DNA from: a virus
Length of the DNA stretch: 64,000 bases
Virus record (IMG/VR): IMGVR_UViG_3300027917_001949
Span: 88,754 to 152,753 of that record
Strand: one strand, 5' to 3'
Below the pieces are notes generated by a model, which searched no databases, was not told the DNA's origin, and saw nothing but the letters and a program-made list of their open reading frames with translations. This document shows positions 41,724 to 48,740 of the stretch, in pieces (positions within the stretch are counted from its first letter, which is position 1; every line of letters starts with the position of its first letter). The translations under genes and the position numbers were made by a program.

Positions 41724-41752
41724 ATTATAAGCGGCTTATTTCGATTTGTCAA
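41724..41752 (-). promoter_or_regulatory. leftward divergent promoter
   Basis: Minus strand TTGACA (41752-41747), 17-bp spacer, TATAAT (41729-41724). Its upstream 17 bases GAAAATAATAGTTGACA are identical to those of the rightward promoter at 43148. Confidence 0.85.
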
Positions 41753-42452
41753 CTATTATTTTCTGGCGCCTGGAAGAGGGTTGCTGTTCAGTCAAATGTC
41801 ATAATTGCCAAACCTTGGTGGGGGGTTCTGGTTCTGGCGAGATGCTCATACCTACCATATATACAGGCATCATATAGATAGTATAGTATTGTTCAAGCCA
41901 AACGTAAGGTTCTGTTCAGCAGATGCCAGCCCGACGACATACCCAGGATTACTTGCCGTATGTTTCCCGTACTCTGCTCGACGTTTGCCAGACATAGCTA
42001 TGAGTTCAACGTTTGCCATATATAGGGCTGAACGGTAACGTCATGCCTTCGTTGTTCAGAAAATTTGAAAACGTTGCCGCTCCTACGTCCAGCATATGTC
42101 CCACTGCCGTTCAGCGTACATGCTCCACGTATATGTCATTATTGCCGTGTATGTATATATGGTAGATATTTTGCCTAACGGAGACTATACAAGAACCCAC
42201 AGCCACCCCACGTTCTGTTCTGCGTTCATGGCGTTTATGCCGCTGTTCACTCTGTTCTGCCGAAACGGCGATTATGCCATACGAGCCACTGTTCTGCCAC
42301 GTGGCGATTATGCCGTTCGGTACTCTGTATATATGGTGGCATTTCTGCCGTACGACCTCTAAAGGTACGCTAATCCAGGATTATGGCTGATAAAATAAAG
42401 TCTTGACATCTGGTAATTCGCCGCTTATAATGTATATAGAGAGGTGAGAAAT
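41753..42452. repeat. non-coding strand-switch region with dispersed repeats
   Basis: About 700 bases with no supported gene; coding strand changes here. It holds CTGTTCAG-type words (41784, 41912, 42052, 42107, several TGTTCTG variants) and GGCGATTATGCC (42268, 42304) with variants GGCGTTTATGCC (42230) and GGCATTTCTGCC (42339). Two promoters point outward. Candidate control region or replication origin; no DnaA-box cluster was recognised. Confidence 0.7.
42358..42431 (+). promoter_or_regulatory. rightward promoter with upstream box (copy 1)
   Basis: TCTAAAGGTACGC at 42358-42370, 32 bases, TTGACA 42403-42408, 17 bases, TATAAT 42426-42431. The same box and spacing recur upstream of the promoters at 43148 and 44548. 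Confidence 0.85.
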
Positions 42453-42626
42453 ATGAGTAAAATACTACTGACAGTCTACAAAGACAACACGCACGAGGAA
42501 ACGACTCAAGCTATACGGTTTCTTAATTCCTTTGGTCGTGAGGTCGAAATCGTGAATTCGCCAAAGAAGCACCCGAAACGTAAAGAGAACTTTGGCAGGT
42601 TCATAAAGGAGAGTGCTAATGGGTAG
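42453..42626 (+). CDS. small hypothetical protein
   Basis: 57 residues from ATG 42453 (GAGAGGTGAG). Begins SKILLTVYKDNTHEETTQAI, glutaredoxin-like in length and strand-helix pattern but lacking CxxC. First gene rightward of the strand switch. Confidence 0.6.
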   Translation: MSKILLTVYKDNTHEETTQAIRFLNSFGREVEIVNSPKKHPKRKENFGRFIKESANG

Positions 42627-42729
42627 TCAGTACCGGTGTCCGAAGTGTGGCGAGTTACATCACCCATTGAGGATGTGTCCCAAAGATTTAGGAAAGGAGA
42701 CGAATCATGGCGGAAGCACAAAAAGTTAA
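42619..42729 (+). CDS. zinc-finger micro-protein
   Basis: 36 residues, ATG 42619 overlapping the previous stop. YRCPKCGELHHPLRMC gives a C-x2-C...C cluster with His. Function unknown. Confidence 0.5.
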   Translation: MGSQYRCPKCGELHHPLRMCPKDLGKETNHGGSTKS

Positions 42730-43018
42730 TGCAGAAGATGTTATTGGCGAAATGTGTACCTGTGGTCACATCAAGGCATCTCACGCTGGACTGAATGGTC
42801 ACGGCTACTGCGAAGTTGACCTGTGTGACTGTGAACAGTACACATGGGACTTCTTCTTGGTTCAAAAGCCGAGATACTGTCCAGTATGTAGACAGCCGAT
42901 GCGACTCCTGGAGCTTTGTTATGTCGAAGACGTAACAGGCGAAGCCAAGACATGTTGGGCATGCGATTGCAACGAAGCATTCGTTTATATGGTTGAGCCG
43001 GTAGCCAGCCTTCAGTAA
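42707..43018 (+). CDS. cysteine-rich zinc protein
   Basis: 103 residues, AAAGGAGACG site. CTCGHIKASHAGLNGHGYCE, CDCEQY, CPVC and CWAC give two probable zinc sites; the first resembles CxCG..H...G.C motifs of small phage zinc proteins. Function unknown. Confidence 0.65.
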   Translation: MAEAQKVNAEDVIGEMCTCGHIKASHAGLNGHGYCEVDLCDCEQYTWDFFLVQKPRYCPVCRQPMRLLELCYVEDVTGEAKTCWACDCNEAFVYMVEPVASLQ

Positions 43019-43221
43019 TGGCGTAGCTGTTCTGAGTAGGTGGCACGGATATGGGTGGCTGTTCAGTCACCCTGCCTGAAGATGGCATTTATGCCATACA
43101 TATCTAAAGGTACGCACTCCCAGGAGCTTTCGCCACGAAAATAATAGTTGACATCCGGTAATTTGCCTGCTATAATATATATGTAAAGGTCGAGTCCAGA
43201 GAACAGAAAAGGAGATAACCG
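43019..43221. repeat. non-coding repeat island 2
   Basis: Holds CTGTTCAG (43059), GGCATTTATGCCATAC (43084) and the second copy of the promoter/upstream box. No ORF supported. Confidence 0.6.
43103..43176 (+). promoter_or_regulatory. rightward promoter with upstream box (copy 2)
   Basis: TCTAAAGGTACGC 43103-43115, 32 bases, TTGACA 43148-43153, 17 bases, TATAAT 43171-43176. Drives the gene at 43222 with a 45-base leader and AAAGGAGATAACC site. Confidence 0.88.
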
Positions 43222-43542
43222 ATGAGCCGAAGGAAAGATAGGGAACGAGCCAAGTCGGGATTAGTCTTTCGAAATTCTGCTGGTTTTTCTGGTTTAGTCA
43301 ATCGAGAGGAATGGGAAGCCGAACATCCTACCAAAACTCAACAGCGTGAGGCTCTTGACAAGTTCCTCAGAGAAGAGATGGCTAAAAAGAGAGCAGAACG
43401 TGAAGCACTCGATTTCAAAGACCAATCTGCTGTAGCAGCCGAAGCTATCCCGAACAGGTATTACTGCACAGCCTGTCGAAAGCATCACATCAAGACTTCG
43501 AAAATTGGCAGTGAACACTTGAATTTTTACTTGGAGGATTAA
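43222..43542 (+). CDS. basic CxxC protein
   Basis: 106 residues. Charged helix in the middle (EMAKKRAEREALDF); C-terminus YYCTACRKHHIKTSKIGSEH, a CxxC with His and SKIG..H pattern typical of small zinc proteins. Function unknown. Confidence 0.6.
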   Translation: MSRRKDRERAKSGLVFRNSAGFSGLVNREEWEAEHPTKTQQREALDKFLREEMAKKRAEREALDFKDQSAVAAEAIPNRYYCTACRKHHIKTSKIGSEHLNFYLED

Positions 43543-43543
43543 A

Positions 43544-43642
43544 ATGAGTCAAGGATGTAAACTATTACTGGATAAAAAACATTGTACAGCATTCCCGAAA
43601 TGCATATTTCGAAAGGAATGCAAGGAGGCAAAGAATGGGTAA
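43544..43642 (+). CDS. 32-residue cysteine peptide, variant of the Cys motif
   Basis: ATG 43544 with TTGGAGGATTAAA. Sequence contains HCTAFPKCIFRKECKEA: C-x5-C-x5-C with an FRK core, like the common motif with a longer first gap. Overlaps the next gene by 8 bases. Confidence 0.5.
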   Translation: MSQGCKLLLDKKHCTAFPKCIFRKECKEAKNG

Positions 43643-43808
43643 AGGTAATCCGGTAGTCGCAGCGGCGATAGACCAGGTGCATGAGCAAATCGATAAAGTT
43701 CAGCACCACATTGATGCGGGGGCTAGTTTACATATGCGAAATACCCAGATAGACAGGGCAATCGCTTCAGTAGACACTCTCAAGGCATCGCTCAAAGCAT
43801 TAAAGTAA
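43635..43808 (+). CDS. small helical protein
   Basis: 57 residues, ATG 43635 with AAGGAGGCAAAG. Two helices (AAAIDQVHEQIDKVQHHI and IDRAIASVDTLKASLKALK), coiled-coil-like. Function unknown. Confidence 0.55.
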   Translation: MGKGNPVVAAAIDQVHEQIDKVQHHIDAGASLHMRNTQIDRAIASVDTLKASLKALK

Positions 43809-43819
43809 AGGAGATAATC

Positions 43820-44212
43820 GTGAGAGATTATATGACAATCGGTAGTAGCCCTTACGATGAGGACTGTGCTCAAGTTGGTACGCCAGACTACTACGAACGA
43901 ACCAAGATTGAGTTAAATGCCCTCAAAAACCAGATGCTACGGGTTCTTGGTGAACCGCCAGCACTTACCAGTCTATCAATCAAAGCGTTTCCTCATGACT
44001 TTGGTACATACCATGAATTGGTTTGTAACTATGACGATGATGATGACGCCAGCACGGAATATGCGTTCAGATGCGAAGCTGAACTACCCGCCAAATGGGA
44101 CGATGAAGCATTGGCAGAGATGAAGGGACACGAGAAACCTACTTACGGTATCGGCACGATAGGTGACCTGAAGGAAAGTGGGTTCGGCGCCTGGAAGAAA
44201 GGGGGTGATTAA
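43820..44212 (+). CDS. conserved phage protein (TIGSSP family)
   Basis: 130 residues from GTG 43820 (AAAGGAGATAATC). YMTIGSSPYDEDCAQVGTPD is the N-terminal signature of a family seen in many phages and prophages with unknown function. Confidence 0.75.
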   Translation: MRDYMTIGSSPYDEDCAQVGTPDYYERTKIELNALKNQMLRVLGEPPALTSLSIKAFPHDFGTYHELVCNYDDDDDASTEYAFRCEAELPAKWDDEALAEMKGHEKPTYGIGTIGDLKESGFGAWKKGGD

Positions 44213-44269
44213 ACCCTACAGCCAAATGTTCTAAGAGATAAGAATTAATATTGTAGCCAGGTCGAGATT

Positions 44270-44327
44270 GGGTAATCGTGATGACTAAGCCGTCTAAGAC
44301 GGAGTGCACTAGGGGCAGCGATTACCC
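44270..44327 (+). terminator. nested stem-loop after the TIGSSP gene
   Basis: GGGTAATCG (44270-44278) pairs perfectly with CGATTACCC (44319-44327), followed by TTTCTC; inside, CCGTC-TAA-GACGG (44290-44302) forms a second hairpin. It lies 58 bases after the stop, so a terminator is plausible, though the T-run is short; a structured RNA is the alternative. Confidence 0.5.
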
Positions 44328-44503
44328 TTTCTCATGTTCAGCCTGTTCTGCCATGTTCAGCCGAACCAGACATAGTTCATGGCTGTTCAGTTTTCCTCTT
44401 CAAACAGTCGGCGATTATGCCATGTTATGTAAAGTTCTGTTCAGTCTAATGGCGATTATGCCATGGAGCTAGTCCTGGTACTTGATGCCAAAGCCGCATC
44501 CGC

Positions 44504-44576
44504 TCTAAAGGTACGCAATCGATTTTTCCTGGCGGAGAAATTGGGGGTTGACATTTTATTATTCGCCGCTTATAAT
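44504..44576 (+). promoter_or_regulatory. rightward promoter with upstream box (copy 3)
   Basis: TCTAAAGGTACGC 44504-44516, 31 bases, TTGACA 44548-44553, 17 bases, TATAAT 44571-44576. The first downstream ATG is only 7 bases beyond the -10 box. Confidence 0.88.
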
Positions 44577-44582
44577 GGTATT

Positions 44583-44906
44583 ATGATGGATACGAAACAG
44601 GATACAGAGTACACAACAGGAGAAGTCTACATTCTACACTTTAACAGACCATACTGGACGAATTGTCGCCATTACGTAGGGTATACCAAAGTAGGTGTAG
44701 AAAATCGTATCGCAAAGCATCGTGACGGTAAAGGCTCACTTTTAGTCGATTATGCACATAATAAAAAAGATATTGACTTTAAAGTAGGTCTCATTATCGG
44801 CTGCGAAAGCTTGACTCAAGCTAGACGTATTGAGATTCAACTCAAGCGTGAAGGTCATTTGAGTCGCCATTGCGAAATATGCGGAAAGGAGAAGGCTAAT
44901 GGGTAG
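44583..44906 (+). CDS. GIY-YIG-like nuclease domain protein, possibly leaderless
   Basis: 107 residues from ATG 44583. GEVYILHF at about 12-19 and HYVGYT at about 28-33 are the two halves of the GIY-YIG motif, followed by RIAKHRDG (catalytic Arg region). A C-terminal CEICGKEK forms a CxxC. The start coincides with the expected +1 of the promoter, so the mRNA would have no leader. Role could be homing, repair or restriction. Confidence 0.7.
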   Translation: MMDTKQDTEYTTGEVYILHFNRPYWTNCRHYVGYTKVGVENRIAKHRDGKGSLLVDYAHNKKDIDFKVGLIIGCESLTQARRIEIQLKREGHLSRHCEICGKEKANG

Positions 44907-45063
44907 TCTGGTCGTGAAAATGCAAGAAGATAAAATCACCAAAAACAAGGTACGTCGTTTTACTGATAGCGATGGTCACAACATTTATCTTCAGCCAGAG
45001 GAATGGTCAGAACTCGGCAAACCGGTACACGTCAAGGTCACTGTAGAGAACGACGACGAATAA
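44899..45063 (+). CDS. small hypothetical protein
   Basis: 54 residues, ATG 44899 with AAAGGAGAAGG, overlapping the GIY-YIG stop. FTDSDGHNIYLQPEEWSELG then a C-terminal strand (PVHVKVTVEND) resembles a recurrent small phage protein. Function unknown. Confidence 0.55.
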   Translation: MGSLVVKMQEDKITKNKVRRFTDSDGHNIYLQPEEWSELGKPVHVKVTVENDDE

Positions 45064-45084
45064 TGAAAGAAAGGATTTCGGGCA

Positions 45085-45180
45085 TTGCAATGCTTAATAC
45101 AGACCCTGGGAATTTTGGCTTTTTTCGGATTGTTCATTGCAGTGGCGTACATGAAATACCACCAGAAAAGAAAGTGGTGA
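45085..45180 (+). CDS. possible single-pass membrane peptide
   Basis: 31 residues from TTG 45085 (AAAGGA 9 bases upstream). One hydrophobic helix (TLGILAFFGLFIAVAYM) then KYHQKRKW, cytoplasmic tail. An alternative ATG frame at 45063 in another phase has no ribosome site. Confidence 0.4.
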   Translation: MQCLIQTLGILAFFGLFIAVAYMKYHQKRKW

Positions 45181-45839
45181 GCCAATGAAGAGATAATCTG
45201 AAACCGGCAAAAAATTGAATAACCTGAGAGTAACAGCGTGGCATTGTTCACGCTGTTCAACTTTTATGGCGATTATGCCGCTACGGCAAGGCTGTTCAGC
45301 CAAAAAAGCCAGAAAGGCAGGCTGTTCAGCGAAAGCGGCGATTATGCCATTTTTTTTAGCTCCTATATGGCGATTATGCCCAGAGCCAGGAGTCACTTTC
45401 TGTTCAGCCAAAAAAGCCGACGGGGAGCTAACATTATGTAAACCTGGCTTTCCTGGCATTATGTCAACCTGGCTTATGTCAACCAATTTTTTCGTTACCG
45501 GAATTTTCGTTATTGGAGCTATCATTATGTAAAGTGGCATAATTGGTATCATCCTTTAGGAGTAGATAAAAGTAATACTTTAGTATCATAAAAAGTGATA
45601 CTTTTGATACTTGTATATTGGGCTTGAAAATTATAAAATTAGGTATACTAAAAAACAGGAGAAAACAAGAGAAAATAAAAAAAGTCCAGATACAAGACAA
45701 AAAGAAGTATCAAAAAGCTATCGGTAGACATACCGAATTCAGTTTGCTATTCTGATAATAAGTTAAGATTAACACTCTTAAGTGTAGACTAATAACAAGT
45801 TGAAAGTGTAAAATAAAATAAAAATTGGAGTCTTAACTC
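45181..45839. repeat. non-coding repeat island 4 and AT-rich spacer
   Basis: GGCGATTATGCC at 45268, 45337 and 45369; CTGTTCAGC at 45292, 45322 and 45400, two of them extended as CTGTTCAGCCAAAAAAGCC; ATTATGT(A/C)AA at 45434, 45459, 45475 and 45528, two inside GGAGCTA(A/T)CATTATGTAAA. From about 45540 the sequence becomes strongly AT-rich, with palindromes TCGGTA-GACA-TACCGA (45723) and AGTATCA...TGATACT near 45584. No gene supported. Confidence 0.65.
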
Positions 45840-48201: not shown

Positions 48202-48412
48202 GTTAATAGATGATGTTATCATTAAGTTAATATCTTATGATGAAGAAGAGGACACAGAAACCGCACGATATTTCTGGAACATGTGGAAAGAAGGTATTAA
48301 TGAGGAACATTTCGGTGACTGCACGAATGAACCGAACACATGTACCCGTTGTTTAGCGGAACTTTATTATGAACGTGCAGAAGAACTCATTAATCTAATT
48401 ACGGGGATGTAA
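48170..48412 (+). CDS. hypothetical protein overlapping the tmRNA 5' end
   Basis: 80 residues, helical acidic, with CTNEPNTCTRC. Its last three codons and stop lie in the first 10 bases of the tmRNA. No domain recognised. Confidence 0.55.
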   Translation: MRAMRERALDKLIDDVIIKLISYDEEEDTETARYFWNMWKEGINEEHFGDCTNEPNTCTRCLAELYYERAEELINLITGM

Positions 48413-48733
48413 GGGTTCGACAGGGTATTGAGGTATACATAAGCAGGTAGTCCAGGGTAAGACTTAAAACACCCGAAAAAAATAATTGCTGAATGTAATT
48501 TATTTGTAGTCCTCGATGAAGGACTACTCTTCGTGAATGAGGAAGCTGATACTCTTCTCGAAGACCGTTTATCAGCAGACCCTACTGAGTCTTTAGCAGT
48601 AGTTTAAAACTAAAGATGCTCCACGTACAGTAAGACGTTCCGCTGGACGTGTGTAAGAGAGTGAACGTCTGAACCTGAAGAAAGTGTATATGTAGGTATT
48701 CTGGACGGGGAGTTCGACTCTCCCCCATCTCCA
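48403..48733 (+). ncRNA. ssrA: tmRNA
   Basis: The 5' end GGGGATGTAAGGGTTCGACAG and 3' end GGACGGGGAGTTCGACTCTC...CATCTCCA are classical tmRNA ends; GGGGAUG pairs with CAUCUCC as acceptor stem. CCA is not encoded. The resume codon GCT at 48488 follows AAAAATAATT, as in other tmRNAs. The tag reads AECNLFVV...ESLAVV, 39 codons, stop TAA at 48605, within the helix-5 stem TCTTTAG/CTAAAGA (48590-48614). Rescues stalled ribosomes and tags their products. Confidence 0.93.
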
Positions 48734-48740
48734 CAGTGGT

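Follow-up and report, generated by a model that had tools for sequence, protein, structure and literature searches.

An exact 13-base box at constant distance upstream of three consensus promoters in a tailed phage: a predicted regulator-binding site

Phage promoters with additional upstream elements

In phage phi29 the protein p4 recognizes specific sequences close to early and late promoters and makes contact with the RNA polymerase; it represses the early promoters and activates the late ones, as described in the promoter passages of PMC3100819. The T4 early promoters are characterized, in the promoter description of PMC2988021, as host-type and consensus-strong, with further upstream consensus regions. 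Operon junctions of T4-like phages carry PeSL, an early promoter with a stem-loop, which the pertinent passages of PMC4503421 tie to gene shuffling. For Kayvirus the early promoters are given as TTGACW, a spacer of 17, an extended -10 of TRTGN, and TATANT (promoter passage of PMC7698491).

We analyzed the virus record G000 (152,753 bp), the last 64 kb of which form the window, that is, the whole stretch of DNA to which our coordinates refer unless another locus is named. The record is that of a tailed phage, as seen from matches to portal (E 9.8e-11) and, weakly, to terminase, and from a tmRNA (48403-48736; Rfam RF00023, 115.9 bits), which ARAGORN missed. Three rightward promoters of this phage are preceded by one and the same 13-base box. 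phi29 p4 offers a precedent for a phage protein acting from specific promoter-near sites; however, p4 sites 1 and 3 overlap -35 elements, as far as the promoter passages of PMC3100819 describe them, whereas the box ends 31-32 nt before the -35. The T4 early promoters resemble the G000 set in being strong phage promoters with extra consensus regions, but the additions named in the promoter description of PMC2988021 are UP, TGn and unspecified regions, and that of G000 is a 13-bp box at about -74. When compared with PeSL, G000 adds a fixed box and GGCN6GCC arrays, and a stem-loop may not be present at each junction; gene order differs between G000 and its relative G009. Many of the remaining strong promoters of G000 end in TGnTATAAT and thus resemble the Kayvirus type, whereas the three boxed promoters are mostly without TGn, and the promoter passage of PMC7698491 describes no upstream box. 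The best reading by analogy would place the box with known phage regulator-binding sites upstream of promoters, of class I type.

The box and its promoters in G000

The first-pass annotation had described an exact box, TCTAAAGGTACGC, at three places, each time 31-32 nt upstream of a consensus promoter, and direct search bore this out in full. The boxes at 42358..42370, 43103..43115 and 44504..44516 (all + strand) lie 32, 32 and 31 nt, counted from the box end to TTGACA, before the promoters at 42403..42431, 43148..43176 and 44548..44576 (all +), each of which reads TTGACA-17-TATAAT and matches the -35/-10 consensus at 12/12 positions. The similar spacers GGTAATT(C/T)GCC, claimed for all three, were found in two, the third being TTATTATTCGCC. 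A fourth promoter with this type of sequence, divergent and without the box, is present at 41724..41752 (-), and all four promoters around 41.7-44.6 kb have GCCGCTTATAAT or a near variant in common. A-rich stretches adjoin the -35 in most of the promoters compared. No clear dyad symmetry is evident in the box, in contrast to many dimer sites, and its sequence is presumably unrelated to that of the phi29 p4 sites.

In the whole record the exact box occurred three times, always on the + strand and always in this promoter cluster, and tolerating up to two mismatches added a single site (two mismatches), and the 67 nt that follow this site contain no TTGACA. Random copies unlinked to promoters, which the first-pass annotation had named as the observation that would speak against it, were not found in the record. 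Three of the 24 near-perfect promoters of G000 (at most one mismatch) have the box and 21 are without it. Among the 21 13-mers that occur at least three times in the record, one is the box and five come from the neighboring GGCGATTATGCC dyad. When the three upstream regions of 80 nt were compared at equal offset (+/-1), the longest word in common was 13 bases long, and 2000 dinucleotide shuffles of these regions gave at most 5 bases for a phased common word and 7 for one at any offset; as the shuffles never approached a 13-base phased word, a chance origin of the triple was rejected. With three mismatches allowed, the window yielded 16 matches against a chance mean of 13.06 (sd 3.43), which is no excess, and since this loose pattern is at chance level the signal resides in the exact, phased triple. 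A reversed TACTAAAGTAT was noticed at 45583 (-), before gene 4 (45840), with no clear promoter adjoining it.

A recent duplication of the promoter units was likewise rejected, because intervals and flanks have diverged while the box has remained identical (13/13 among the three units). The interval from box to -35 is identical at 13/32 positions between units 1 and 2, 14/31 between 1 and 3 and 11/31 between 2 and 3 (about 25-45% overall); with the box as anchor the values are 13/31 for units 1 and 3 and 8/31 for units 2 and 3. The 60 nt upstream of the box agree at 15/60, 16/60 and 9/60 (15-27%), and the 20 nt downstream of the -10 at 10/20, 8/20 and 6/20. The box, as the -35 and the -10, is conspicuous against this diverged background. 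Common ancestry of the promoter units may be a partial source of the constant spacing.

The first boxed promoter precedes operon 1 (42453..43018, +), with small ORFs at 42453-42626 and 42707-43018 that have no family match. Operon 2 (43222..44212, +) comprises 43222-43542, 43635-43808 and 43820-44212, and operon 3 (44586..45063, +) comprises 44586-44906 and 44899-45063. The gene at 43222-43542 encodes an SRRKD... protein, of which there are orthologs in G003 and G009 and, by reading of the sequence, in G011; in G003 (L025 17038-17330) the gene ends early and the conserved C-terminal part runs on in another frame. The product of 44586-44906 reads as GIY-YIG-like; it gave no Pfam or PHROG match and has orthologs in G009 and G003. 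The start codon of this gene lies 6-9 nt past the -10 in three phages (window 44571-44588; L027 8160-8177; L025 15878-15896), so that its transcript probably has little or no leader. Neighboring small proteins, tested as regulator candidates, gave no informative family match, and structure prediction for the gene-4 protein gave a low-confidence model, with a mean pLDDT of 59.5.

Dyads of the form GGCN6GCC accompany the boxes. Dyad GGCATTTCTGCC (42338..42349, +) ends 8 nt before box 1 and GGCATTTATGCC (43084..43095, +) ends 7 nt before box 2, while box 3 has only a degenerate copy. Arrays of GGCN6GCC with TGTTC(A/T)G stand before box 1 (42210..42357, +) and before box 3 (44335..44462, +), and of 11 sites of GGCNWWWWNGCC on both strands of the record 9 fall within 42230-45380, amid TGTTC(A/T)G. 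Such arrays, with dyads like GGCGATTATGCC, mark the rightward operon junctions of four related phages, G000 (window 42210-45410) and, at the matching junctions, G003, G009 and G011 (L025 15700-17460, L027 7800-9600, L033 4190-5410). Across the phages, GGCN6GCC ends 7-8 nt upstream of 4/5 TCTAAAG boxes, namely boxes 1 and 2 of G000 and those of G009 and G011. The arrays could be protein sites or an origin. Iteron-like TTATGT(A/C)AA repeats on both strands were also seen before the gene-4 ortholog (window 45430-45535, L023 130-440, L033 5420-5670) and are dense in G002 and G011.

The box in related phages

A terminase protein search of viral loci returned 10 loci, one identical to the window protein and nine at 75-83%, several of which are fragments that do not extend to the box region. 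Other records that reach the region at least in part are G003, G009 and G002, together with G011, which was found via the gene-4 protein. G009 has orthologs of promoter 3 and of the 44586 gene behind it; there TCTAAAGTACCGC stands at a distance of 32 nt from TTGACA, and the promoter that follows in the rightward direction shows ACTAAAGTACC (also given as ACTAAAGTACCAT), again at 32 nt. Both rightward strong promoters of G009 in this region thus carry a box variant, and these are the only matches to CTAAAG(G)TA(C/T) in 20 kb of G009. Of the three rightward promoters in G003, one is preceded by a degenerate version of the box, CTAAAGTAT, with a spacing of 33 nt, and the box is absent at the other two, including the ortholog of promoter 3 (44548). 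In G011 TCTAAAGATACGC is present with the nearest TTGACA 122 nt off, and G002 has no box before its single promoter in the region. None of the leftward promoters compared (n=3; G000, G009, G003) has the box. Phasing is thus good in two phages (G000, G009), partial in one (G003) and lacking in two (G011, G002). The box keeps its helical phase relative to the -35, as expected of a class I type site, at 31-32 nt upstream in G000 (3/3), 32 nt in G009 (2/2) and 33 nt in G003 (1/3), and the relatives indicate that the position of the box relative to the promoter matters.

The first-pass annotation had seen in the constant phasing within G000 a regulator serving a regulon of at least three operons. 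The phased box before three operons, with its position kept in G009, agrees in part with that proposal; the operons are clustered as a single module in a single phage and do not make up a dispersed regulon of the cellular kind, and the proposal accords poorly with a box away from any promoter in G011 and with the unboxed promoters of G003.

Wider searches added no further phage. Ten related records, searched with up to two mismatches, gave matches in two, neither in the box region; the G009 variant differs at three positions and was hence missed, and G011 was outside the ten. A wobble search of viral_contigs for box, spacing and promoter found G009 only. Locus L009, the sole match in viral_contigs to the exact box with TTGACA, was set aside as coincidence, as no TATAAT follows the TTGACA and the site reads as intragenic. 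A scan for the dyad with TCTAAAG returned 83 stretches, and among the 80 loci examined (L034-L113) a box with fewer than two mismatches was found only in the family phages L099 (= G009) and L111 (the G011 record); other low-mismatch loci, which had no exact TTGACA at the required distance, were taken as chance. The divergent leftward gene as query alone found no relatives, and its alignment only the known ones. No relatives of the 44586 protein were found in genome_contigs, and the annotated phage collection yielded no relative by terminase protein or by DNA of the box region.

Candidate roles of the box

We consider it probable that the box is a DNA site for a predicted phage or host regulator, about 74 bp upstream of the predicted starts of three rightward operons. 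The exact triple, its phasing, its restriction to one promoter set and its position in G009 were observed directly; that a protein binds, that it contacts alpha, that the operons are early and in which direction they are regulated are inferences. If the start is about 7 nt past the -10, the box would lie at about -80 to -68, with its center near -74, and regulators that contact the alpha subunit of polymerase commonly bind at such upstream places. A bound protein would sit on a fixed helix face relative to a host sigma-70-type RNA polymerase and touch it. The alpha C-terminal domain would be the most likely point of contact and could plausibly settle on the A-rich stretch that adjoins the -35 on its upstream side. 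At the GGCN6GCC dyads, dimers of this protein or of a partner may bind and reinforce the complex. The three boxed operons, consecutive and rightward behind host-type promoters of a tailed phage, would probably be early. Since these promoters match the consensus perfectly as they stand, tuning or a timed shut-off seems somewhat likelier than simple activation. A DNA-bound regulator is favored because of the phi29 p4 and T4 early promoter precedents, and is further supported by the phased triple with its diverged intervals, by the presence of all record copies at promoters and by the 32 nt of G009; against it, promoters with perfect -35 and -10 elements need no activator, G003, G011 and G002 are exceptions, the neighboring small proteins tested yielded no regulator gene, and the box is not clearly dyad-symmetric.

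The main rival, unlikely in our judgment, is that the box is the edge of a repeated, PeSL-like promoter cassette copied or shuffled between operon junctions and kept identical via recombination homology or gene conversion, with no regulator bound. It would fit with this that promoter cores are more alike within each phage than between phages, that the 44586 and 43222 genes, which in G009 share one promoter unit with the GIY-YIG-like gene first, lie in G000 in separate units and in the opposite order, each unit with box and promoter, that the array in G009 is preceded by a strong hairpin (folding z at some G000 junctions being -2.63 to -0.19), and that G011 retains the box without a nearby promoter. 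However, the interval from box to -35 has diverged and yet is constant in length within 1 nt, G009 included, whereas a pure homology tract should preserve sequence rather than distance, and the cassette edge would need to be exactly 13 bases.

Rather doubtful is a nucleoprotein switch, in which one candidate protein would cover the GGCN6GCC/TGTTCAG arrays of the rightward operon junctions and a second, or the same, would read the box, jointly turning several consensus-perfect promoters on or off at once; this would be specific to the phage family, with box and reader co-evolving (TCTAAAGGTACGC versus TCTAAAGTACCGC).

It is improbable that the box acts in RNA, whether as part of the 3' end of the transcript from upstream or as a signal for its processing or antitermination. 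The 129-nt junction that precedes box 2 does fold better than shuffles (z -2.63), and a terminator-like hairpin closes the preceding unit in G009 (z -6.33), but box 1 lies in a divergent intergenic region, and the box with the next 31-32 nt gave folding z of 1.10, 0.00 and -1.41 for boxes 1, 2 and 3, no better than shuffles for the first two and not clearly so for the third. As no strong rightward promoter that would transcribe box 1 was recognized upstream within the region, and no clear folding excess was found, action in RNA is less likely. Least of all do we expect RNA polymerase itself to recognize the box as a promoter extension, in the manner of an UP element with an unusual sequence, for although the distance from box to promoter is fixed and most of these promoters have A-rich stretches next to the -35, UP elements are A/T-rich DNA at about -40 to -60, whereas the box, farther upstream by the predicted start and with 6/13 G or C, is not A/T-rich, and 21/24 strong G000 promoters do without it.

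If the box is a regulator-binding site, as we favor, it would define a group of host-type promoters under coordinated control, in a phage lineage without a detected relative, by terminase protein or by DNA of the box region, in the annotated phage collection, and would provide a sequence bait for isolating the phage or host transcription regulator.
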